From positions 186,001-250,000 of the forward strand of contig NZ_JARDUA010000006.1 in assembly GCF_029360645.1 (NCBI RefSeq): a DNA stretch of 64,000 nt, written 5' to 3'. The translations under genes were made by a program, and so were the position numbers. This DNA comes from Pontibacter litorisediminis (lineage in GTDB: Bacteria > Bacteroidota > Bacteroidia > Cytophagales > Hymenobacteraceae). This document shows positions 45 through 11,977 of the stretch, piece by piece; within the stretch, counting starts at the first letter, position 1, and every line of letters starts with the position of its first letter. The notes under the pieces are model-generated. The model was not told the origin of the DNA, made no database searches, and saw only the letters and a list, made by a program, of their open reading frames with translations.

Positions 45-506
45 ATGAAACCTGTCCTGTACCTTCTGAGCCTGGCCTTGTTGGCCGTGGCGCTGGGCAG
101 CTGTAGCCCGGAGCCAAAGCCGATTCCTTACGGGCAGGCTAACTGCGCCCACTGCAGCATGACGGTGGCAGACAACCGCTACGGCGCAGAGCTGGTAAAC
201 GAAAAGGGAAAGCCTTACTTCTTCGATTCTGCCGAGTGCCTGATGGCCTATGTGATAGAGCAGCCGGAGCAGGGGGAGAAGGCGGCTTATTTGCTGGTGA
301 CGGACTTTACCAGACCCGGTGAGCTGCTAAACGCAAAAGATGCGCAGTACCTGCAGGCGAAAGCCCTGCCCAGCCCAATGGGCATGTACCTGACCGCTGT
401 AGCCGACGAGGCTACTGCTACAAAAATGCAAAAGGAGATAGGTGGCCAAGTGCTCACCTGGAGCGAGGCGGTCTCGGCCGTTCAAAACAATGAAAGACCT
501 GAGTAA
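45..506 (+). CDS. nosL: NosL copper-delivery lipoprotein, copy 1
   Basis: NosL is a membrane-anchored copper chaperone that supplies copper for the CuZ centre of nitrous oxide reductase. The 153-residue product begins with a lipoprotein signal ending in a lipobox at residues 17-20 (LGSC), so it should be anchored facing the periplasm. The family copper site is visible as C34-x2-C37-x-M39. A second copy at 6712 shares most of this sequence, including the motif CAHC and the segment around PSPMGM. The gene overlaps nosD by 17 bases, so the two are probably co-translated. The promoter is either upstream of the window or in the first 44 bases. Confidence is high from motif and context. Confidence 0.93.
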   Translation: MKPVLYLLSLALLAVALGSCSPEPKPIPYGQANCAHCSMTVADNRYGAELVNEKGKPYFFDSAECLMAYVIEQPEQGEKAAYLLVTDFTRPGELLNAKDAQYLQAKALPSPMGMYLTAVADEATATKMQKEIGGQVLTWSEAVSAVQNNERPE

Positions 507-1788
507 ACATATCACTTTTATACTTGCCGCTTTGGGGGTGCTTTTGGCGACCCCTGCGGTTTTTGGCAGCACGCTGAAGGTGTGCAGTACCTGCCCCTAC
601 ACGTCGGTGAAGCAGGCCGTGGCCAAAGCCAAGCCTGGCGACACGGTGCTGATAGAGGGTGGCGTGTACCAGGAGCAGGGCATTGAGATAAACAAGCCGC
701 TGACAGTTCTGGGCAGAAACAACCCGGTGATCGACGGAAATTATAAAGGCCAGATCTTTACCATAACGTCAGACAACGTGACGGTGGAGGGGCTTACCAT
801 TAAGAACATCGCCACCAGCTATACCCGCGACGACGCTGCCATACGGGTGGTGGAGCGCAGCAACATCCGCATCCTTAACAACACGATCCTGAACACCTAC
901 TTCGGCATTTACCTGCAGAATTCAGACAACTGCGTGATCAAGGGCAACGTGGTGACGGGACAGGATGTAACCGGTATGAATGAGTCGGCGCTGGGCAATG
1001 CCATACACCTATGGTACTGCGACAAGGCCGTTATCAGCAACAACAAGGTAAAAGGCCACCGCGACGGTATTTACCTGGAATTCGTGAAAGACAGTGAAGT
1101 GAAGAACAACCTGAGCCAGCATAACCTGCGCTACGGCCTGCACTTCATGTTCTCTGACCGCAACGTGTATACGCATAACATCTTCCGTAAAAACGGAGCC
1201 GGCGTGGCCGTGATGTATACCCGCGACATCCGGATGGAGCACAACACCTTTGAGGATAACTGGGGCGCCGCAGCCTATGGCTTACTTCTGAAAGATATTT
1301 CGAACAGCGTGATCTACAACAACACGTTTCGTCGCAATACCACTGCCATTTACATGGAGAGCTCCAACCGCCTGGACATCCAGCGCAATAACTTTGACCG
1401 CAACGGCTGGGCCGTACGGTTGCTCAGCAGCTGCACCGACGACGTGTTTAAGCTAAACAACTTTACCGGCAACTCTTTTGACGTCAGCACCAACGGCGAT
1501 AGCCAGCTGAACCGCTTCGAGAACAACTACTGGGACAAGTACACCGGCTACGACCTAAACAAGGACCGGATAGGCGATGTGCCCTATCGCCCGGTAAGCC
1601 TATACTCGATGCTGGTGGAGCGCGTGCCGCCCTCCGTGATGTTTATGCGCAGCTTTATGGTGGACCTGATGGATAACATCGAGAAAGTACTGCCAAGCAT
1701 CATACCTGAAAATTTAGTGGATCAACAGCCTTTAATGAGCAGAACAGACCATGATAACGATAGAAAACTTGCGCAAGTCCTACAGTAA
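490..1788 (+). CDS. nosD: NosD periplasmic copper-site maturation protein, copy 1
   Basis: NosD is a right-handed beta-helix periplasmic protein that works with the NosFY transporter in building the copper centre of NosZ. The 432-residue protein has a Sec signal (residues 1 to about 27) followed by TLKVC.TC and many repeats of the form N-N-x-I/F, typical of the parallel beta-helix (CASH/NosD) domain. A longer frame opens at 442 but its extra residues are non-hydrophobic and precede the signal peptide, so ATG 490 is preferred. It overlaps nosL by 17 bases and nosF by 38 bases. Short blocks near the 3' end match copy 2 base for base. Confidence 0.92.
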   Translation: MKDLSKHITFILAALGVLLATPAVFGSTLKVCSTCPYTSVKQAVAKAKPGDTVLIEGGVYQEQGIEINKPLTVLGRNNPVIDGNYKGQIFTITSDNVTVEGLTIKNIATSYTRDDAAIRVVERSNIRILNNTILNTYFGIYLQNSDNCVIKGNVVTGQDVTGMNESALGNAIHLWYCDKAVISNNKVKGHRDGIYLEFVKDSEVKNNLSQHNLRYGLHFMFSDRNVYTHNIFRKNGAGVAVMYTRDIRMEHNTFEDNWGAAAYGLLLKDISNSVIYNNTFRRNTTAIYMESSNRLDIQRNNFDRNGWAVRLLSSCTDDVFKLNNFTGNSFDVSTNGDSQLNRFENNYWDKYTGYDLNKDRIGDVPYRPVSLYSMLVERVPPSVMFMRSFMVDLMDNIEKVLPSIIPENLVDQQPLMSRTDHDNDRKLAQVLQ

Positions 1789-2458
1789 GCTGCAGGTACT
1801 GAAAGATATAAATGTAAGCTTTGAAGCCGGTAAGGTGATATCGGTAATAGGGCCGAACGGCTCCGGTAAAACAACGATGAGCAAGTGTATACTGGGCATG
1901 GCCTTACCCGACAGCGGCGATATAAAGATCAACGGCGAAAGTATACTGAAGAAGCACGTTTACCGAAGCCATATCGGGTACATGCCGCAGATAGGCAAGT
2001 ACCCCGAAAACATGAAGATCCGGCAGGTGATAGAGATGATCCGGGATATACGGAAAGATGCCACTGTTGTGGATGAAGAACTGATCGGCCTGTACCGCCT
2101 GCAGGAAATGTATGATAAGCGCATGGGCTCACTATCGGGTGGTACCAAGCAGAAGGTGAGTGCCGCGCTGGCCTTTATGTTCGACCCACAGATACTGATT
2201 CTGGACGAGCCCACCGCCGGCCTGGACCCGATCGCTGCCGAGATTCTGAAAAGCAAGATCCTGAAGGAAAAGAAACGCGGCAAACTAATCCTGATCACAT
2301 CGCATATCATGAGCGAGATTGAAGAAGTGGCCGACGAAGTGATGTGCCTGGTAGACGGGCAGGTGAAGTTTCATGATACCATTTCTGATATCAAAGCGCA
2401 GGCGAACGAAGCACGCCTGGGCAAGGCCATTGCCAAAATTATGAATGAGGAGGACTAA
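1751..2458 (+). CDS. nosF: NosF ABC transporter ATPase, copy 1
   Basis: ATP-binding subunit of the NosFY transporter, needed for assembly of the copper centre of nitrous oxide reductase; it acts on the cytoplasmic side with NosY. The 235-residue protein has Walker A GPNGSGKT at residues 34-41, an ABC signature LSGGTKQK and Walker B LILDEP followed by TAGLDP, then the switch histidine region ITSHIMSE. It starts inside the end of nosD (38-base overlap) and ends 3 bases before nosY. Its central part (about 2200-2330) is nearly identical in DNA to copy 2, whereas the first 150 bases are clearly diverged. Confidence 0.94.
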   Translation: MITIENLRKSYSKLQVLKDINVSFEAGKVISVIGPNGSGKTTMSKCILGMALPDSGDIKINGESILKKHVYRSHIGYMPQIGKYPENMKIRQVIEMIRDIRKDATVVDEELIGLYRLQEMYDKRMGSLSGGTKQKVSAALAFMFDPQILILDEPTAGLDPIAAEILKSKILKEKKRGKLILITSHIMSEIEEVADEVMCLVDGQVKFHDTISDIKAQANEARLGKAIAKIMNEED

Positions 2459-2461
2459 GCC

Positions 2462-3229
2462 ATGAGCAAGATCATCAAATACGTTTTCTACGACATCATC
2501 CGGAACAAAATTGTGCTGGCCTACACGTTGTTCCTGCTGCTGCTCTCCGTGGGCCTCTTTAATTTGGGCGGCAGCCCCGACAAAGCCATCCTCAGCCTGC
2601 TGAACCTGGTGCTGCTTACCGTGCCGCTGATCAGCATCGTGTTTGCCACCACGCACTTTTATAACTCCTATGAGTTTATGGAGCTGCTCGTAGCACAGCC
2701 GATCAACCGCAAAAAGATATTCATGAGCGAGTACCTGGGCGTGGCTTGTTCGCTTTCAGGAGCTTTTATACTTGGGGTGGGCACACCGGTGCTGCTGTTT
2801 GGTGCCAGCCTTACAGGTTTATACTTACTGCTCACAGGCGTATTCACCACCTTCATCTTCGTGGCGCTGGCTTTCCTGGCGTCCGTAATTACCCGCGACA
2901 AAGCAAAAGGCATTGGCATAGCGCTGCTGCTGTGGTTCTACTTCGCCCTTATTTACGATGGCATTGTGCTGTTTATACTTTATGCTTTCGCCGATTACCC
3001 GCTGGAGAACGCCACACTGGCCATGACCGCCCTTAACCCGGTTGATTTAGGCAGGATCATCGTTTTGCTGAACCTGGACGTGTCGGCGCTGATGGGTTAT
3101 ACAGGAGCGCTCTATAAAAGTATACTTGGCAGCCTGTGGGGTATAGGCCTTGCTTTTGGGCTGTTACTGCTCTGGATAGTGGTGCCGATCATGAGTTCCA
3201 GGAGCATCTTTGGAAGAAGAGACCTGTAA
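2462..3229 (+). CDS. nosY: NosY ABC transporter permease, copy 1
   Basis: Membrane partner of NosF in the transporter that supports NosZ maturation. The 255-residue product is strongly hydrophobic with about six membrane spans, beginning after a short amphipathic N-terminus (MSKIIKYVFYDIIRNKI) and ending with a basic tail (RSIFGRRDL). The order nosD-nosF-nosY with near-contact spacing is that of known nos clusters. Several stretches, such as the one encoding the segment GLYLLLTGVFT, are almost base-identical to the second nosY at 9128. It closes the first maturation set and is followed by a hairpin and a terminator. Confidence 0.92.
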   Translation: MSKIIKYVFYDIIRNKIVLAYTLFLLLLSVGLFNLGGSPDKAILSLLNLVLLTVPLISIVFATTHFYNSYEFMELLVAQPINRKKIFMSEYLGVACSLSGAFILGVGTPVLLFGASLTGLYLLLTGVFTTFIFVALAFLASVITRDKAKGIGIALLLWFYFALIYDGIVLFILYAFADYPLENATLAMTALNPVDLGRIIVLLNLDVSALMGYTGALYKSILGSLWGIGLAFGLLLLWIVVPIMSSRSIFGRRDL

Positions 3230-3286
3230 GAAAAGAAATAGTGCCTGCTTCGGCAGGAGTTGATTAGGTGCTTTAGTGTTTCTGAG

Positions 3287-3320
3287 AAGCGCAGTCCTTT
3301 TGGGCTGCGCTTTTTGTTTT
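3287..3320 (+). terminator. Rho-independent terminator after nosY copy 1
   Basis: An AAGCGCAG arm (3287-3294) pairs with CTGCGCTT at 3305-3312 across a short loop, with additional CC/GG pairing and a one-base bulge, and is followed by a T-rich run. A smaller hairpin with a TTCG loop lies just upstream at 3243-3257. It separates nosY from the cytochrome c and nosZ. Confidence 0.75.
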
Positions 3321-3422
3321 AAGATAATGCCTAAGCTTACCGCTGACAGGGGGTTTTAAGAACGGTAATAACCATTTGCCGTACACGGCAGTATAAAGCT
3401 GTTCAATAAAAACTGGAAAACC

Positions 3423-3962
3423 ATGATAGAAACGAGAGAAAAACGAAACAAACTGATGTCAAGTGTACTCTTGGGGCCTTTGCGGCTTGGAGTGGCAGCG
3501 TTATTCTGCGGCTCGGTGTTATTCAGCTGCTCCGGGGATGGTGAAAACAATGCAACGCAGGCCCAGGAAGAGACAGGCGCAGCACAGCAAACAGAAACAG
3601 CAACCGGAGAGGTAGAGGATAATGGACTGGGCGTTGGGCCTGTGACCTCGGTGGAAATAGGGGATCAGATTGATGAGGCGCTTGCCGCAGAAGGAAAGTC
3701 AATTTTTGAGGCTAAGTGCTCTGCCTGCCATCAGCTGTCTGACCAGAAGATAGTAGGCCCAGGCCTGGCCGGTGTAACAGAGCGCCGCAAGCCGGAGTGG
3801 ATCATGAACATGATGATAAACCCAGAGGAAATGACCAAGAAGGACCCGGAAGCTAAAAAACTCCTGGCCGAGCACTTAACGCAGATGACCAACCAGGATA
3901 TTTCTGAAAGCGATGCGAGAGCTCTGTTGGAATTTCTGAGACAGAACGACCAGAACAACTAA
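3423..3962 (+). CDS. Lipoprotein monohaem cytochrome c of the nos cluster
   Basis: A small c-type cytochrome, probably an electron donor to nitrous oxide reductase on the outer face of the membrane. The protein has a lipoprotein signal ending LFSC (Cys36 in this 179-residue reading), an acidic/Gln-Thr-rich linker of about 50 residues, and one haem c motif CSACH near residues 99-103, followed by a class I cytochrome c fold (GPGL..V..R). A second start, ATG at 3456, would shorten the signal peptide to a more usual length and is equally possible. It lies 19 bases upstream of nosZ in the same direction, so co-transcription is likely. The electron-donor role is inferred from position. Confidence 0.85.
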   Translation: MIETREKRNKLMSSVLLGPLRLGVAALFCGSVLFSCSGDGENNATQAQEETGAAQQTETATGEVEDNGLGVGPVTSVEIGDQIDEALAAEGKSIFEAKCSACHQLSDQKIVGPGLAGVTERRKPEWIMNMMINPEEMTKKDPEAKKLLAEHLTQMTNQDISESDARALLEFLRQNDQNN

Positions 3963-3981
3963 AGTATCTGTAACAAACCCT

Positions 3982-6027
3982 ATGGATATGAAATCACTTT
4001 TCAGTAAAACAACTGGAGCAACGTCAGGGATAGGCCTATCGTTTGCATTGCTTGCCGGTGTGGCGCTGCAAAGCTGTAGCGGCGGCGATGATGCTAACGT
4101 TAAAGACGGTGCCGTTGCGGAGGATGCTGCAGCAGCCGTTTATGTGCCGCCTGGGGAGCACGATGAACTGTACTCGTTCCTGTCGGGTGGCTTTAACGGA
4201 CAGGTGTCGGTTTACGGGCTTCCCTCAGGCCGCTTGCTGAAGGTAATACCGGTGTTTTCGCAGTTCCCTGAAAACGGCTATGGCTACAACGAGGAAACCA
4301 AGCCAATGCTGATGACCTCGCACGGCTTTGTTCCCTGGGATGACCTGCACCACCCCAAGCTCTCCAGAGCCGAAGGGATGGCAGACGGCCGCTGGCTGTT
4401 CGTGAATGGGAATAACACGCCACGTGTAGCCCGCGTCGACCTGACTACCTTCGAGACGGTCGAGATCATGGAGATCCCGAACTCAGCGGGTAACCACTGC
4501 TCTCCGTACCCAACCAATAACAACGAGTATGTGCTTGCCGGTACACGCTTCTCGGTACCTATCGATACAGAGTCGGGCGGTATCCCAGACGTAAGTATGG
4601 AAGAGTATAAAGACAAGTTCCGTGGCTCCATCTCCTTTATAAAAGTAGATAAAGAGCATGGCGACATGGAGCTGGACTTTCAGGTGCTTGTGCCTGGCTT
4701 TGACTACGACCTGGCTAACGGCGGTAAGGGACCATCGGAGGACTGGGTATTCTTTACAACCTATAACTCAGAGAAAGCCGCTACCCTGAAAGAACTGGGG
4801 GCCTCGCAAAACGACCGCGACTATCTGGCGGCAATTAACTGGAAACTGGCGGCCAAGTATGCGGCTGAGGGCAAAGCCCATGAAATGCCTGCCAATTACT
4901 ACCACAACAAAATGGACCATGGTTCGCACCAGGCCAAGTCAACCGTTAAAAAGTCAGTGCGCTACCTGCTGCCGGAGGAGTGCCCCGGCATGATGTACCT
5001 GCTGCCTGCGCCTAAGTCGCCACACGGTATTGATGTGGACCCCACCGGGGAGTATATGGTGGTGAATGGAAAGCTGGCCTCCTCGCTGCCTGTTTTTTCT
5101 TTCTCAAAAATGCAACAGGCCATCGAAAACAAGGATTTTGACGGGGAGGTGAATGGCATTCCGGTGCTGAAGTATGAGTCTGTGCTGTATGGCGAGGTAA
5201 AAGAGCCCGGCCTGGGCCCATTGCACACCGAGTTCGACGGAAAAGGAAACGCGTACTCCACCATGTTCGTGTCGTCGGAAGTGGTGAAGTGGAACGTGGA
5301 AGACCTGCAGGTACTGGATAGAATGCCGGTTTACTACTCGCCGGGCCACCTGCTGATACCAGGCGGCGATACCAAGGATCCGTATGGCAAGTACCTGGTG
5401 GTGATGAACAAGATCACGAAAGACCGCTACCTTCCAACCGGGCCGGAACTGCTGCACTCTGCCCAGCTGATAGACATTAGCGGCGACAAGATGCGCATGC
5501 TGCTCGACTTCCCGACACTGGCCGAACCACACTACGCCCAGGCCATACCGGCCGACAAAGTGGCACCGAATAGTGTGAAGTTCTTTAAGCTAAATGAGAA
5601 TACCCACCCTGAGGCGGTTAAATCAGAGAAAGATGTGAACGTGACGCGCCAGGGCAAAACCGTGAAGGTGAATATGACCTCTATCCGAAGCCACTTTACA
5701 CCGGACGTGATTGAAGGCGTACAGGTAGGCGACACGGTTATATTCCATGTTACCAACCTGGAGCAGGATTGGGACGTGCCGCACGGCTTTGCTGTAATGG
5801 GGGCGGAAAATGCCGAGACCTTGATCATGCCGGGCGCCACGCAGTCGCTGCGGTGGGTGCCAAAAGCCGAGGGCATTTATCCGTTCTACTGTACAGACTT
5901 CTGCTCGGCGCTGCACCAGGAAATGCAGGGCTATGTACGGGTATCGCCTAGAGGATCTAACGTTCCGATCAGGTTCTTTACCGGAGAGAAGAAACCTGTA
6001 CCACCCGCCCAGGCCTCAGTAAATTAA
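3982..6027 (+). CDS. nosZ: Nitrous oxide reductase, Sec-dependent lipoprotein type (clade II)
   Basis: Terminal reductase converting N2O to N2. The 681-residue product lacks a twin-arginine motif and instead has a Sec-type signal with lipobox LQSC at residues 29-32, the mark of clade II enzymes and unusual in predicting a lipid anchor. The beta-propeller carries the CuZ histidine patches DDLHHPKLS, GNHCSPYP, SPHGIDVDP, LGPLHTEFDG and EPHYAQA. The C-terminal cupredoxin domain has the CuA motif C-TDF-C-SAL-H-QE-M. An alternative ATG lies two codons in. It is preceded by the cytochrome c and followed by a terminator and a NosB-like gene. The sequence appears intact, with all metal-binding patches present. 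Confidence 0.97.
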   Translation: MDMKSLFSKTTGATSGIGLSFALLAGVALQSCSGGDDANVKDGAVAEDAAAAVYVPPGEHDELYSFLSGGFNGQVSVYGLPSGRLLKVIPVFSQFPENGYGYNEETKPMLMTSHGFVPWDDLHHPKLSRAEGMADGRWLFVNGNNTPRVARVDLTTFETVEIMEIPNSAGNHCSPYPTNNNEYVLAGTRFSVPIDTESGGIPDVSMEEYKDKFRGSISFIKVDKEHGDMELDFQVLVPGFDYDLANGGKGPSEDWVFFTTYNSEKAATLKELGASQNDRDYLAAINWKLAAKYAAEGKAHEMPANYYHNKMDHGSHQAKSTVKKSVRYLLPEECPGMMYLLPAPKSPHGIDVDPTGEYMVVNGKLASSLPVFSFSKMQQAIENKDFDGEVNGIPVLKYESVLYGEVKEPGLGPLHTEFDGKGNAYSTMFVSSEVVKWNVEDLQVLDRMPVYYSPGHLLIPGGDTKDPYGKYLVVMNKITKDRYLPTGPELLHSAQLIDISGDKMRMLLDFPTLAEPHYAQAIPADKVAPNSVKFFKLNENTHPEAVKSEKDVNVTRQGKTVKVNMTSIRSHFTPDVIEGVQVGDTVIFHVTNLEQDWDVPHGFAVMGAENAETLIMPGATQSLRWVPKAEGIYPFYCTDFCSALHQEMQGYVRVSPRGSNVPIRFFTGEKKPVPPAQASVN

Positions 6028-6046
6028 TAGCCCTGTGCGGGTAAAG

Positions 6047-6084
6047 CAGCGGAGTTTGTGACAGGCAGGCTCCGCTGTCTTTTT
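6047..6084 (+). terminator. Hairpin terminator after nosZ
   Basis: CAGCGGAG (6047-6054) pairs with CTCCGCTG (6070-6077), followed by a short T-run. Its position directly after nosZ and just before the next start suggests attenuation between nosZ and the downstream genes rather than a full operon end. Confidence 0.7.
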
Positions 6085-6109
6085 GTAGTTGCACCTTAAC
6101 GCTAAGAGA

Positions 6110-6697
6110 ATGAACGTATACCTGAGAGTGATCATGGTTGCGGCAGCGCTGTCGCTGGGGCTGTTGTTCCTCTACCCGATGTGGAAGATCTACCTGGAGG
6201 CGCCGCAATATCCGGAGGGGCTGGAGCTGCACATTTGGGTAAACAAGCTGGGCGGCAGTTCTGAGAGTGTGCTGCAGAACTTCAATATCCTCAACCACTA
6301 CATCGGCATGGAAAAGATCAACCCAGACTCTTTTGCAGAGTTAAAGTATATGCCCTACATCGTGGTTGCTTTTATGGTAACGGGCGTGCTGGTGGGCTTG
6401 ATCGGGAAACCGAGGCTGGTGCTGATCTGGGTGGTGCTGCTGGCCATTGCCGGAACTGTTGGAATCCTGGACTTTTACCTGTGGCTGCACAAGTTCGGCA
6501 CCAACCTAGACCCGGAAGCGCCAATCAAGGTGCCAGGCATGACGTACATCCCGCCCTTGTTAGGCAGTAAACAGTTACTTAACTTTAATGCACTATCCTT
6601 GCCGTCGTGGGGCAGCCTGGGCATATTTCTGGCGCTCGTGCTCGGCGGGGTAGTTTATGCTTTAAGCCGGAAACCAACCAAACAACTGGTGGCATAG
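6110..6697 (+). CDS. NosB-like integral membrane protein of the nos cluster
   Basis: A 195-residue membrane protein placed directly after nosZ, where clade II clusters carry the hydrophobic protein NosB. About four membrane spans are visible (near residues 5-25, 77-97, 101-121 and 165-185), with a sizeable external loop between the first two that contains APQYPEGL. I choose ATG 6110 because the only upstream option is a TTG at 6089 that falls next to the terminator. The NosB label rests on position and hydrophobicity, not on a remembered alignment. It ends 14 bases before the second nosL. Confidence 0.7.
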   Translation: MNVYLRVIMVAAALSLGLLFLYPMWKIYLEAPQYPEGLELHIWVNKLGGSSESVLQNFNILNHYIGMEKINPDSFAELKYMPYIVVAFMVTGVLVGLIGKPRLVLIWVVLLAIAGTVGILDFYLWLHKFGTNLDPEAPIKVPGMTYIPPLLGSKQLLNFNALSLPSWGSLGIFLALVLGGVVYALSRKPTKQLVA

Positions 6698-6711
6698 CAG
6701 CCCCTACACCT

Positions 6712-7176
6712 ATGAAAAAAGAAGCGATTTATACTTTCAGCCTGCTGGCTATACTGTTTCTGCTCGTAGCCTGCTCTGTGGAGCCTAAACCCATACCCTA
6801 CGGGCAGGCCAACTGCGCCCACTGCAACATGACGGTGGCCGATAACCGCTATGGTGCCGAACTGGTGAACGACAAAGGCAAAGCCATCTTCTTCGACTCA
6901 GCCGAGTGCTTGGCCGCTTTTGTGATTGAGCAACCGGAACAAGGCAACAATGCCGCCTACTTAATGGTTACAGACTATACCAACCCTAACCAGATATTAG
7001 ATGCCCGGGAAGCCCATTTCCTGCAGAGCCGGGAGTTACCCAGCCCGATGGGCATGTTCCTGACCGCCGTGGCCGACAAGGCAACCGCAGAACAGATGCA
7101 GCAGGAGCACGGCGGCCGCCTGCTTAACTGGGACCAGGTAGTTTTAGCAGTACAACATAATGAGAAACCCGACTAA
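6712..7176 (+). CDS. nosL: NosL copper-delivery lipoprotein, copy 2
   Basis: Second NosL, 154 residues, with lipoprotein signal ending at Cys21 and copper site C35-x2-C38-x-M40. The mature part follows copy 1 closely (PKPIPYGQANCAHC, RYGAELVN, FFDSAECL), while the signal peptide is unrelated. Start ATG 6712 is chosen because it begins the signal peptide; the frame is open further upstream inside the preceding gene. It overlaps the second nosD by 17 bases, exactly as in copy 1. Confidence 0.92.
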   Translation: MKKEAIYTFSLLAILFLLVACSVEPKPIPYGQANCAHCNMTVADNRYGAELVNDKGKAIFFDSAECLAAFVIEQPEQGNNAAYLMVTDYTNPNQILDAREAHFLQSRELPSPMGMFLTAVADKATAEQMQQEHGGRLLNWDQVVLAVQHNEKPD

Positions 7177-8485
7177 ACAGATCTTTATACTTGCCTATAT
7201 ACTGGCCCTGATGCTCGGTAGCCAGAAAGCGTTTGGTGATACCCTGAAGGTATGCAAAACCTGTAGTTTTACCTCGGTAAAGCAGGCGGTGCAAAAAGCA
7301 AGTATAGGGGATACCATATTAATAGACGGCGGCACCTACCAAGAGGCCGGAATAGAGGTAGACAAACCCCTAGCCATACTTGGGGAGAATAACCCGGTCA
7401 TAGACAGCAACTTTAAAGGGCAGATACTAACGGTGCTGGCTGATGATGTAACCATACAAGGCCTTACGCTCAAGAACATCGCCACCAGCTATACCCGCGA
7501 TGACGCCGCCATACGTGTTATCCAGCGCAGCAACGTCCGCATCCTCAACAACACCATCCTGAATACCTACTTCGGCATTTACCTGCAGTACTCTGAAAAC
7601 ATTGCGGTGAAGGGCAACGTGGTGAGAGGTGAGAAAGGCGACAAAACAGAGTCGGCGCTGGGCAATGCCATACATGTATACTATACCGATGAGGTGGAGA
7701 TAACAGGAAACCACGTGCAGGGCCACCGCGACGGCATTTACTTGGAGGTAGCGAAAAACAGCAAAGTGCACCGTAACATCAGCCAAAACAACCAGCGCTA
7801 CGGCATGCACTTCATGTTCTCCAACGGCAATACCTATACATATAATACCTTCCGCAATAACGGAGCCGGCGTGGCCGTGATGTATACCGACGATGTGCGG
7901 ATGGAGCACAATACCTTTGAGGACAATTGGGGCGCAGCGGCCTATGGGTTATTGCTGAAGGACATCCGCGACAGTGTGATTCGCAACAACACATTCCGCC
8001 GCAATACCACCGCCATTTATATGGAGAGCTCTAACCGCCTGGATATTCAGCATAATAACTTCGAGCGCAATGGCTGGGCTATAAAGCTGCTTACCTCCAG
8101 CTTAGATAATACCTTTAGGCGGAACAACTTTACCGGCAACTCTTTCGATGTCAGCACTAACGGCCCAAACCAGCTGAACCACTTCGAGAACAACTACTGG
8201 GAAAAGTATACCGGCTACGACCTGAACAAAGACGGTGTGGGCGATGTACCCTACCGCCCGGTAAGCCTATACTCGATGCTGGTGGAGCGCGTGCCGCCCT
8301 CCGTGATGTTTATGCGCAGCTTTATGGTAGACCTGCTCGATAATATGGAGAAGGTTTTGCCAAGCATTATTCCGGAGAACCTGGTAGATAAAAAACCCTT
8401 GATGAAGAGAATTGAACATGATAACAATAAAGAACTTGCACAAGTCCTACGGCAAACTACAGGTGCTGCGGGACGTGAGCGTTGA
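7160..8485 (+). CDS. nosD: NosD periplasmic copper-site maturation protein, copy 2
   Basis: Paralogue of the gene at 490, 441 residues, with its own signal peptide (residues 1 to about 26) and the same beta-helix repeats. The two proteins agree over long stretches such as the region with SYTRDDAAIRV and the C-terminal block SLYSMLVERVPP, but the N-terminus and several loops differ. The 3' end runs 68 bases into the second nosF. A short C-terminal extension (TTGAAGRER) is absent from copy 1. Its role in NosZ maturation is presumably redundant with, or specialised from, copy 1. Confidence 0.92.
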   Translation: MRNPTKQIFILAYILALMLGSQKAFGDTLKVCKTCSFTSVKQAVQKASIGDTILIDGGTYQEAGIEVDKPLAILGENNPVIDSNFKGQILTVLADDVTIQGLTLKNIATSYTRDDAAIRVIQRSNVRILNNTILNTYFGIYLQYSENIAVKGNVVRGEKGDKTESALGNAIHVYYTDEVEITGNHVQGHRDGIYLEVAKNSKVHRNISQNNQRYGMHFMFSNGNTYTYNTFRNNGAGVAVMYTDDVRMEHNTFEDNWGAAAYGLLLKDIRDSVIRNNTFRRNTTAIYMESSNRLDIQHNNFERNGWAIKLLTSSLDNTFRRNNFTGNSFDVSTNGPNQLNHFENNYWEKYTGYDLNKDGVGDVPYRPVSLYSMLVERVPPSVMFMRSFMVDLLDNMEKVLPSIIPENLVDKKPLMKRIEHDNNKELAQVLRQTTGAAGRER

Positions 8486-9131
8486 GTTTGGCACAGGGAA
8501 AGTTGTGTCTGTTATAGGCCCTAACGGTGCCGGCAAAACTACCATGAGCAAGTGTATACTGGGCATGGTGCTGCCTGATAGCGGCGACATCCGGATTGAT
8601 GGCCAGAGCGTGCTGAAAAAGTATGCCTACCGAAGCCAGATCGGGTATATGCCGCAGATAGGCAGGTACCCCGAAAACATGAAGATCCGGCAGGTGATCG
8701 GGATGATCCGCGACATTCGCAAAAAGGAGAAGAGTGTAGATGAGGAACTGATCGGCCTGTACGCGCTGGAGGAGATCTATGATAAGCGCATGGGAGCCCT
8801 GTCTGGTGGTACCAAGCAGAAAGTGAGTGCCGCGCTGGCCTTCATGTTCGACCCGCCTATACTTATACTGGACGAACCCACCGCCGGCCTGGACCCGATC
8901 GCTGCCGAGATTCTGAAAAGCAAGATCCTGAAGGAAAAGAAGCGCGGCAAACTGATCCTGATCACATCGCATATCATGAGTGAGATTGAAGAAGTGGCCG
9001 ATGAAGTGCTTTGCCTGGTAGACGGAAGTATAAAGTTCTTCGAAACAATTGCTGACCTGAAAGCACATACCCAGGAAGACCGCCTGAGCCGTGCCGTCGC
9101 CAAACTTATGAACGAAGGATATCACCCATGA
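8418..9131 (+). CDS. nosF: NosF ABC transporter ATPase, copy 2
   Basis: Second NosF, 237 residues, with Walker A GPNGAGKT, signature LSGGTKQK and Walker B LILDEP. ATG 8418 is preferred to the TTG two codons upstream because it reproduces the N-terminus MITI-NL-KSY of copy 1. It overlaps nosD by 68 bases and nosY by 4 bases (ATGA), tighter than in copy 1, where nosF and nosY are 3 bases apart. The central third is almost base-identical to copy 1. Confidence 0.93.
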   Translation: MITIKNLHKSYGKLQVLRDVSVEFGTGKVVSVIGPNGAGKTTMSKCILGMVLPDSGDIRIDGQSVLKKYAYRSQIGYMPQIGRYPENMKIRQVIGMIRDIRKKEKSVDEELIGLYALEEIYDKRMGALSGGTKQKVSAALAFMFDPPILILDEPTAGLDPIAAEILKSKILKEKKRGKLILITSHIMSEIEEVADEVLCLVDGSIKFFETIADLKAHTQEDRLSRAVAKLMNEGYHP

Positions 9132-9895
9132 ACAAGATCATCAAATACGTCCTCCTGGACATCATCAAAAGCAGGATCATCATTGCCTATACGCTGTTTC
9201 TGCTGCTGCTTTCCATTGGCCTGTTCAACCTGGGGGGCAGCCCCGACAAAGGTATACTCAGCCTGCTGAACCTGGTACTGCTGACGGTGCCGCTCATCAG
9301 CATCGTTTTCGCCACTACGCACTTCTACAACTCCTATGAATTCATGGAATTGCTGGTGGCACAGCCGATCAACCGTAAAAAGATATTCATGAGCGAGTAC
9401 CTGGGGGTGGCGCTCTCGCTTTCGGCAGCTTTCATAGTGGGCGTCGGTATCCCGGTGATCATCTTCAGCACGGGGCTTACAGGTTTATACTTACTGCTCA
9501 CAGGCGTATTCATCACCTTCATCTTCGTGGCCATGGCTTTTCTGGCTTCGGTTATCACCCGCGACAAGGCCAAGGGTATCGGTATAGCCCTGCTGCTGTG
9601 GTTTTACTTTGCCCTTATTTACGATGGCATTGTGCTGTTTATACTTTACGCCTTCAGCGATTATCCTTTGGAGTATGCCACTTTGGCCATGACTGCCCTT
9701 AACCCGATAGACCTGGGCAGGATCATCGTTTTGCTGAACCTGGACGTGTCGGCGCTGATGGGCTACACTGGGGCCTTGTACAAAAGCATTTTCGGGAGTG
9801 TGTGGGGAATCGCAGCTGCGTTTGGGTTGCTGTTGCTGTGGGCGCTTATACCGGTGCTAAGTTCTCGGCGTATCTTCTCCAGAAGGGATTTGTAG
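9128..9895 (+). CDS. nosY: NosY ABC transporter permease, copy 2
   Basis: Second NosY, 255 residues, same length as copy 1 and alignable without gaps over the whole protein. About six membrane spans are visible; the C-terminus again ends in RRDL. Identical DNA blocks with copy 1 include those encoding VAQPINRKKIF and LNLDVSALMGYTGA. It closes the second maturation set and is followed by a strong terminator at 9934. Confidence 0.92.
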   Translation: MNKIIKYVLLDIIKSRIIIAYTLFLLLLSIGLFNLGGSPDKGILSLLNLVLLTVPLISIVFATTHFYNSYEFMELLVAQPINRKKIFMSEYLGVALSLSAAFIVGVGIPVIIFSTGLTGLYLLLTGVFITFIFVAMAFLASVITRDKAKGIGIALLLWFYFALIYDGIVLFILYAFSDYPLEYATLAMTALNPIDLGRIIVLLNLDVSALMGYTGALYKSIFGSVWGIAAAFGLLLLWALIPVLSSRRIFSRRDL

Positions 9896-10156: not shown

Positions 10157-11977
10157 ATGGCCTCTACCGATATTACCCCCAGCGAGGTGCACCCCGTGCA
10201 TGAAGAGCACGAGCACCACGAGCAGAGTTTTATAGAGAAGTATATTTTCAGCCAGGATCACAAAGTTATTGCCAAGCAGTACCTGATCACGGGCATTTTC
10301 TGGGCCTTTATAGGTAGCTTTCTGTCGGTGCTGTTTCGTATGCAGCTGGGCTGGCCCGAGGCTACCTTTTCTTTCCTGGAGCCGATTTTGGGAGGCTGGA
10401 TTGAGAACGGGAAGCTGAACCCCGAGTTTTACCTGGCGCTGGTAACCATGCACGGCACTATCATGGTGTTCTTCGTGCTGACGGCGGGCCTTAGCGGTAC
10501 GTTCAGTAATTTCCTGATACCGCTGCAGATAGGGGCCCGCGACATGGCCTCCGGTTTTATGAACATGCTGTCGTACTGGCTCTTCTTCCTCTCCAGCGTG
10601 ATCATGTTCTGGTCGTTGTTCATAGACACCGGCCCCGCGGCCGGCGGCTGGACCGTGTACCCGCCGTTGAGTGTGCTGCCAGAAGCCATACAAGGCTCTG
10701 CTGCCGGGATGACGCTGTGGCTCGTTTCCATGGCCTTGTTCATTGCCTCCACACTTTTGGGGGGCATCAACTACATCACCACCGTTATCAACCTGCGTAC
10801 AAAAGGCATGTCGATGAGCAGGCTGCCGCTCACGGTGTGGGCACTCCTGCTGACGGCCATCGTAGGCCTGCTGTCGTTCCCGGTGCTTTTTTCTGCGGCC
10901 ATACTGCTGATTTTCGACCGTAGCTTTAACACTAGCTTCTTCCTGTCTGACATTTATATTGCGGGGCAAGCCCTGACCAACACCGGCGGTAGCCCTATAC
11001 TTTTCCAGCACCTGTTCTGGTTCCTGGGCCATCCGGAAGTATACATCGTGATTATGCCGGCCTTTGGCATTACCTCCGAGGTGATCGCCACCAACGCCCG
11101 AAAACCAATCTTTGGCTACCGCGCCATGATCGGCTCGCTGATGGGCATCTCGGTGCTGTCTATTGTGGTGTGGGCGCACCACATGTTCGTTTCAGGCATG
11201 AACCCCTTCCTGGGCTCGGTGTTCATGTTCCTGACGCTGATCATCGCGGTGCCGTCGGCGGTGAAGGTGTTTAACTGGCTGGCCACCCTGTGGCGGGGCA
11301 ACATACGGTTTACCACAGCCATGCTTTTTGCCATCGGCTTTGTCTCGATCTTTATCTCGGGAGGCTTAACGGGTATTATTCTGGGTAACTCAGCGCTGGA
11401 CATCCAGTTGCACGATACGTATTTTGTGGTGGCACACTTCCACATGGTGATGGGAGCGGCCGCCTTCTTTGGGATGTTCTGCGGGGTGTACCACTGGTTT
11501 CCGAAAATGTTCGGCCGCATGATGGACGAGAAACTGGGCTACGTCCATTTTTGGCTCACCTTCTTGTCGGTATACCTGGTGTTTTTGCCGATGCACTACG
11601 TGGGTATAGCTGGCTTCCCGAGGCGTTACTACAACTGGACGGGCTTCGAGACGTTTAACATCTTCACCGACCTGAACACCTTTATAAGCATAGCGGCTAT
11701 CTTTGGCTTTTTTGCGCAATTCGTCTTCCTATTCAACTTTCTGTACAGCATCTGGTGGGGGCGCAAGTCATCTCCAAACCCGTGGCACTCCAACACGCTG
11801 GAGTGGACGACGCCTGTGCTGCTAGGCCACGGTAACTGGCCAGGGCCGCTGCCAGTGGTATACCGATGGCCATACGACTACAGCAAGCCCGGTGCGCCGG
11901 AAGACTATATTCCACAGACAGTACCATACTCGAAAACAACATCCTCGAACCTGCCGTACGAGCGGGACTCGGATTAA
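10157..11977 (+). CDS. ctaD: aa3-type cytochrome c oxidase subunit I, without its partners
   Basis: Catalytic subunit of a type A heme-copper oxygen reductase, 606 residues, about 12 membrane spans. Diagnostic motifs are present: the CuB/cross-link motif GHPEVYI, the CuB histidine pair WAHHMF, and the haem histidines in HDTYFVVAHFHM. The N-terminus is histidine- and glutamate-rich (HEEHEHHEQ). No subunit II, III or haem A synthase gene lies next to it; it is flanked by the nos terminator and a convergent proline dehydrogenase gene. It is either assembled with subunits encoded elsewhere or part of a split operon. The product class is certain; the complex it joins is not visible. Confidence 0.94.
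   Translation: MASTDITPSEVHPVHEEHEHHEQSFIEKYIFSQDHKVIAKQYLITGIFWAFIGSFLSVLFRMQLGWPEATFSFLEPILGGWIENGKLNPEFYLALVTMHGTIMVFFVLTAGLSGTFSNFLIPLQIGARDMASGFMNMLSYWLFFLSSVIMFWSLFIDTGPAAGGWTVYPPLSVLPEAIQGSAAGMTLWLVSMALFIASTLLGGINYITTVINLRTKGMSMSRLPLTVWALLLTAIVGLLSFPVLFSAAILLIFDRSFNTSFFLSDIYIAGQALTNTGGSPILFQHLFWFLGHPEVYIVIMPAFGITSEVIATNARKPIFGYRAMIGSLMGISVLSIVVWAHHMFVSGMNPFLGSVFMFLTLIIAVPSAVKVFNWLATLWRGNIRFTTAMLFAIGFVSIFISGGLTGIILGNSALDIQLHDTYFVVAHFHMVMGAAAFFGMFCGVYHWFPKMFGRMMDEKLGYVHFWLTFLSVYLVFLPMHYVGIAGFPRRYYNWTGFETFNIFTDLNTFISIAAIFGFFAQFVFLFNFLYSIWWGRKSSPNPWHSNTLEWTTPVLLGHGNWPGPLPVVYRWPYDYSKPGAPEDYIPQTVPYSKTTSSNLPYERDSD

Follow-up and report, generated by a model that had tools for sequence, protein, structure and literature searches.

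Nitrous oxide (N2O) reductase, NosZ, is the main known biological sink of N2O, a strong greenhouse gas. Clade II (Sec-dependent) nos clusters encode a cytochrome c, NosZ (model TIGR04246), a NosB-like protein, NosL, NosD, NosF and NosY in one operon. The locus described here has the same genes. It lies in Pontibacter litorisediminis, partly inside and partly just to the left of a 64,000-nucleotide stretch (the window; contig C6, positions 186001–250000) of a 5.0-Mb genome (G000). It differs from the usual clade II cluster in being present as two complete tandem copies whose upstream regions differ.

Genomes with more than one nosZ are already known. Those of Schinkia and Bacillus azotoformans hold several clade II nosZ genes with accessory genes, and the three B. 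azotoformans NosZ proteins are 76.5–83.1% identical, with conserved ligands (PMC13274427, PMC3475470). Their clusters are dispersed and vary in arrangement, some lacking nosL or nosB, whereas the Pontibacter copies lie side by side, each with the full gene set in one shared order. Calidifontibacillus likewise has two nos clusters per genome, but nosL is described in one only (PMC11388526). Activated sludge has yielded 401 clade II metagenome-assembled genomes (MAGs), of which 15, including 10 Bacteroidota, hold two nosZ that are not identical; unlike in the adjacent Pontibacter pair, no two of these nosZ were within 45 genes of each other (PMC11409646). PMC13274427 cites juxtaposed nosZ pairs from an isolate and from six MAGs. 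In Pseudogulbenkiania NH8B the second nosZ-like sequence beside nosZ is described as a 183-bp pseudogene remnant, while the second Pontibacter copy is an intact operon (PMC5017806). A literature search of titles and abstract openings found no report of the Pontibacter nos tandem.

We read the locus as two complete clade II N2O reductase operons in tandem. Each would be self-sufficient, the two would be differently controlled, and their maturation transporters would be partly interchangeable. Judged from comparative sequence analysis, the probability of this reading is roughly 0.7. The locus bears on the question of why some bacteria keep several NosZ.

Two complete operons lie head to tail

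The nosL-nosD-nosF-nosY set is present twice, at 45–3229 and 6712–9895, in identical order (Pfam NosL, NCBIfam NosD and ABC-type models). In both copies nosL and nosD overlap by 17 bases (490–506 and 7160–7176). A first-pass annotation, made from the window, had described both features, and the family models and coordinates bear it out. It had also placed the two sets around one nosZ, and the window alone does show a single nosZ. That picture is an artefact of the window's edge. A search of the whole genome with the Sec-type NosZ model TIGR04246 (cut-off 625) gives two full matches, NosZ-A at C6:183306–185126 and NosZ-B at C6:190129–191949. The nosZ-A gene ends 0.8 kb left of window base 1, and its cytochrome c and nosB genes lie there too. 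The repeat unit is seven genes, cytochrome c-nosZ-nosB-nosL-nosD-nosF-nosY, found twice, head to tail, adjacent and on one strand, with nosB-A overlapping nosL-A by 4 bases (Table 1).

Both NosZ proteins score above the TIGR04246 cut-off, which assigns them to the Sec-dependent (clade II) type. A lipobox-like pattern, as a pattern match only, stands at the N-terminus of 68 of the 71 NosZ compared. The further content of a clade II cluster, a NosB-type membrane protein beside nosZ and then nosD, nosF and nosY, is found in both copies, NosB being assigned from position and hydrophobic segments alone; the operon 2 protein has no Pfam or NCBIfam match.

The seemingly surplus maturation set belongs to this other NosZ, encoded just beyond the window edge. 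The earlier proposal was that one nosZ is flanked by two sets, the second perhaps serving another copper protein. Each set in fact shares its operon with a nosZ. NosD, like NosZ, is above cut-off in 53 genomes of the family, and a scan of these 53 loci counts 71 nosZ and 71 nosD; the numbers match, and no locus pairs two sets with one nosZ (0/53). With the second nosZ found in the upstream operon, a second set for another protein is very improbable. The 17-base overlap was considered as a sign of recent duplication and rejected. Of 68 nosL-nosD junctions compared within the family, 65 have the in-frame ATG that gives it, so the overlap is an old, inherited feature that says nothing about recent copying.

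The tandem is found in 18 Pontibacter genomes

NosZ scores above cut-off in 53 of 204 family genomes, of which 35 are single-copy and 18 have two. All 18 belong to Pontibacter, where 40 of 50 genomes carry NosZ, 22 of them as a single copy. The genus is identified through 15 of its genomes, each of which matches a named Pontibacter record without a difference over 600 bases. The paired nosZ genes are always spaced 6.7–7.1 kb apart. Seventeen of the 18 pairs are complete; the remaining genome, G177, lacks the second nosY. Among the best 80 named loci of a longer list, some of which end at contig ends, the pair is present in 10 of 15 named Pontibacter loci and in none of 62 others. Samples of the order and the phylum, which overlap the family set and had at most three candidates scored per genome, contain NosZ in 92 of 390 and 127 of 395 genomes, respectively. 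Two full NosZ occur only in G000 and G186 (both Pontibacter) in the order sample and only in G000 in the phylum sample. Across the family, order and phylum samples no genome outside Pontibacter has two full NosZ.

The copies are old and both look functional

The two copies are well separated in sequence. Amino-acid identity between them is 66% for cytochrome c, 80% for NosZ, 74% for NosB, 66% for NosL, 72% for NosD, 80% for NosF and 86% for NosY. DNA identity is 67–80%, and silent-site distances of 0.8 to 3.2 are near or beyond saturation. On these distances the two operons are an old, diverged pair. Copies this diverged rule out an assembly duplicate, which the first-pass annotation had named as the finding that would overturn its observation. 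The same order also recurs in 18 genomes, one of them (G174) a single 4.34-Mb contig. With 20–33% of the DNA differing between copies, and no point found in its support, an assembly artefact can practically be dismissed.

Both copies are under purifying selection: in comparisons of eight species pairs, the ratio of nonsynonymous to synonymous change (dN/dS) is 0.00–0.22 for each gene of operons 1 and 2, save for one undefined value. The copper-ligand motifs (CuZ histidines, CuA ligands) were checked with a residue numbering that we take to be correct. Seven of the eight are present in all 33 A-type and all 28 B-type NosZ, the types being defined below. The sixth-histidine motif, [PV]GH, is present in 28/28 B and 30/33 A sequences; two further A rows have IGH and one is ambiguous. 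Across all 71 NosZ rows, outgroups included, 61–71 rows match each motif. Both copies thus look functional by their motifs and selection.

Paired operons carry two NosZ types

A NosZ tree places all 18 first copies in one clade, A (33 rows), and all 18 second copies in another, B (28 rows). With a second tree method, the split of A from all other rows and that of B from A each have 98% support in the Shimodaira–Hasegawa-like approximate likelihood ratio test (SH-aLRT). The 35 single-copy family genomes divide into 15 A, 10 B and 10 of neither type, and the 22 single-copy Pontibacter into 12 A, 6 B and 4 outside both. Since single-copy Pontibacter carry A or B alone, either operon type can stand alone. 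Alignments of other genes hold fewer than the possible 71 rows (cytochrome c 69, nosL 68, nosF 70, nosY 69) owing to cut contigs and divergent or absent genes.

Different conserved elements precede the two operons

The 101-nt stretch 3230–3330, which holds a hairpin after nosY-A, folds with z = −4.6. A comparable hairpin follows the first nosY in all 18 pairs. Single-copy operons often end with a similar one, which makes the hairpin look like a terminator that belongs to the operon itself.

Upstream of operon 1, all 18 pairs have a composite arrangement: TGACn4GTCA, with one mismatch allowed, is followed after 4 bases by TAAAAGAn8TCTTTTA, with two allowed, and then by a −7-like TAnnTTTG. The arrangement extends through the family. 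In 50 of 53 loci TAAAAGAn8TCTTTTA lies upstream of the nos operon, or of the first where there are two, with TAnnTTTG 41 bases from the start of the palindrome in 47 of these 50; TGACn4GTCA is present there in 45 of 53. In the window genome the composite operator has one site only (up to three mismatches), at C6:182472–182509, left of the window. By its shape, TGACn4GTCA may be the site of a Crp/Fnr-type regulator. The FNR box TTGAn6TCAA is absent upstream of either operon in the 18 pairs, and a first promoter regular expression had no match in the upstream regions. A genome-wide regulon of TAAAAGAn8TCTTTTA was looked for and rejected: a single site exists at up to one mismatch, and at two mismatches the 34 sites do not exceed the control, which has 31, in any notable way.

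Neither palindrome occurs upstream of the second operon (0/18). A different element, AACnG-n14-CGTA, stands there in 18/18 copy-2 regions, compared with 0/18 copy-1 and 1/35 single-copy regions and 0.5% of shuffled copy-2 regions; these counts are descriptive, the element having been read off the same regions. Its spacing is fixed and its spacer poorly conserved, and the fixed two-block spacing makes it a promoter-like candidate. The looser AAC-n16-CGTA is in 18/18 copy-2 regions and also in 4/35 single-copy regions. As a pattern only, it presumably resembles promoters of extracytoplasmic function (ECF) sigma factors. One single B-type locus, G148 (L134), has neither palindrome upstream of its called cytochrome c start; that open reading frame is called unusually long, and the right region may be missed.

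The terminator-like hairpin between the operons and the differing conserved upstream elements lead us to infer separate control. The first-pass annotation had offered different conditions as another use for the second set. That idea gains support of a sequence kind, from the hairpin in 18/18 pairs and the unrelated conserved upstream elements, and becomes a testable prediction of separate control.

Gene dosage would make such differences meaningless, two equivalent operons being kept for higher NosZ output with upstream changes of no regulatory consequence. In favour of dosage, each copy has the full gene set, purifying selection acts similarly on the two, and either type suffices in single-copy relatives. 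But the two have not converged (NosZ 80%, cytochrome c 66% identical), and the conserved upstream elements differ in 18/18 pairs. We consider dosage alone unlikely.

NosY and NosF move between the types

NosY copies are 91–100% identical in 8 pairs in which the NosZ copies are 78–81% identical. In the window genome, identical stretches shared by the copies reach 74 nt in nosD (p 0.002), 65 nt in nosF (p 0.008) and 47 nt in nosY (p 0.018), while nosZ has 26 nt at most (p 0.59); these belong to 49 tests for gene conversion in seven genomes and the p values are uncorrected. Three genomes (G162, G166 and G144; loci L142, L143 and L167) have single chimeric operons, in which B-type nosZ and most of nosD are joined to A-type nosF and nosY. 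In G177, which matches P. roseus (locus L126), no nosY follows the second nosF, and a single nosY match stands beside the two NosZ of this genome. By sequence comparison, the two NosY have been homogenised in 8 pairs, and recombination has exchanged NosF/NosY across the types. Taken together, the NosY homogenisation, the three chimeras and the single NosY of G177 suggest that NosY is not specific to one NosZ type. NosF, too, is probably exchangeable.

A scan for mosaic structure found the first 60-residue window of NosZ nearer copy 1 in 10/10 B-type singles. Recombination was rejected as the cause, since 6/8 outgroup rows behave likewise, which marks copy 2 as the derived one there.

A proposed model of paired, separately controlled operons

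Under the reading we prefer, two tandem operons with separate control, each operon would supply its NosZ with its own cytochrome c, the likely electron donor, and with NosB, the copper chaperone NosL and NosD. The NosFY transporter may be able to serve either NosZ. Operon 1 would be driven by the ancestral, family-wide operator, possibly through a promoter regulated by anoxia or nitric oxide (NO), and operon 2 by a separate promoter belonging to a different class. Depending on conditions, the cell would then make one NosZ form or both. NosZ, cytochrome c, NosB and NosL would stay more distinct between the systems than NosY and NosF.

Several observations weigh against this reading. The nosB, nosL and nosD trees differ from the NosZ grouping, and the A/B split is less clean there. 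NosZ is not wholly untouched by exchange, as nosZ of G158 has an unusual identical run of 65 nt (p 0.002), and the number of uncorrected run tests has to be kept in mind. In a consensus scan of 3150–3480, three terminator-like sites appear (0.2 expected), none of which is the hairpin at 3286, and the same scan shows no plus-strand sigma-70-type promoter and one minus-strand site. The upstream elements are sequence patterns. The first, stricter form of the operon 2 element was present in 15/18 regions before the form counted above was settled, and in G189 AACnG-n14-CGTA falls inside the called cytochrome c open reading frame. Finally, the 18 species with the tandem share ancestry.

A more specific proposal is tentative, and we hold it to be possible rather than probable. 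It supposes split regulation of an ancient operon pair, with the family operator at operon 1 and an ECF-like sigma promoter at operon 2. The two NosZ forms would suit two regimes, for instance anoxic respiration as against scavenging under oxygen or copper stress, and recombination would keep NosF and NosY interchangeable. The 18 tandem genomes (one without the second nosY) beside 22 single-operon congeners form a natural comparative set. From the natural chimeras, and from the absence of a second nosY in G177, predictions follow as to which maturation components are specific and which can be exchanged.

Origin of the pair

How the pair arose is a separate matter from its function, which would be as proposed above on either account. 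The B-type operon may have arrived laterally beside a resident A-type operon. For NosZ and for cytochrome c alike, the 18 second copies group in a single clade that excludes the B-type singles, which leans towards arrival over duplication in place. Both types are also present in genus g5, two genomes of which match named Rufibacter records. In a rpoB-rpoC species tree (60 genomes, with 51 of the 53 nosZ carriers, G187 and G007 being left out, and weak deep nodes), G162 and G166 lie near the window genome, yet they do not group with its copy-2 NosZ. On the other side, A and B are sister clades. An NO reductase gene is an upstream neighbour of tandem, A, B and outside-type loci alike, within the fetched flank of 11/18 tandem, 5/15 A, 6/10 B and 4/4 outside-type Pontibacter loci. 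Duplication in place with later losses and recombination fits equally. The chance of lateral arrival, in our estimate, falls a little short of even. A tblastn search (E up to 1e-3) found no remnants of a lost second copy in the 0.4–5.7 kb downstream of 29 single-copy A, B and outside-type loci.

Coordinates and neighbouring genes

Table 1. Features of the two nos operons and the region between them. Positions are those of the window; L003 is the flank to its left, where L003 position = window position + 15000.
Feature	Position	Strand	Evidence
Cytochrome c gene, operon 1	L003 11592–12125, left of window		Precedes nosZ-A
nosZ-A	L003 12159–14204, left of window		TIGR04246, 922 bits
nosB-A (nosB-like)	L003 14437–15048, left of window		Position after nosZ-A
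nosL-A, copper chaperone lipoprotein, operon 1	45–506	+	Pfam NosL, 56 bits
nosD-A, start overlaps nosL-A by 17 bases	490–1788	+	TIGR04247, 430 bits (cut-off 300)
nosF-A, ABC ATPase	1751–2458	+	ABC_tran; Walker A and LSGG motifs
nosY-A, ABC permease, final gene of operon 1	2462–3229	+	ABC2_membrane_2; 86% identity with nosY-B
Terminator-like hairpin and T-rich tail between operons	3286–3321	+	Fold of 3230–3330, z = −4.6; equivalent in 18/18 pairs
AACnG-n14-CGTA element, promoter candidate, upstream of operon 2	3361–3383	+	18/18 copy-2 regions
Cytochrome c gene (lipoprotein-like), operon 2	3423–3962	+	Pfam Cytochrom_C; CxxCH
nosZ-B, Sec-type (clade II) N2O reductase	3982–6027	+	TIGR04246, 912 bits; copper-ligand motifs
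nosB-like membrane protein, operon 2	6110–6697	+	About four hydrophobic segments; position after nosZ
nosL-B	6712–7176	+	Pfam NosL, 61 bits
nosD-B, 17-base overlap with nosL-B	7160–8485	+	TIGR04247, 414 bits
nosF-B	8418–9131	+	ABC ATPase family matches; 80% identity with nosF-A
nosY-B, last gene of operon 2	9128–9895	+	ABC2_membrane_2

To the left of the window, a divergent NO reductase gene (NorB cytochrome c-like and COX1 domains) lies at L003 7688–9988 on the minus strand. It adjoins two genes without a family match and is a frequent upstream neighbour of nos in Pontibacter. Directly 3' of operon 2, at 10157–11977, is a cytochrome c oxidase subunit I-like gene that scores 592 bits with TIGR02891, below the cut-off of 670.75.

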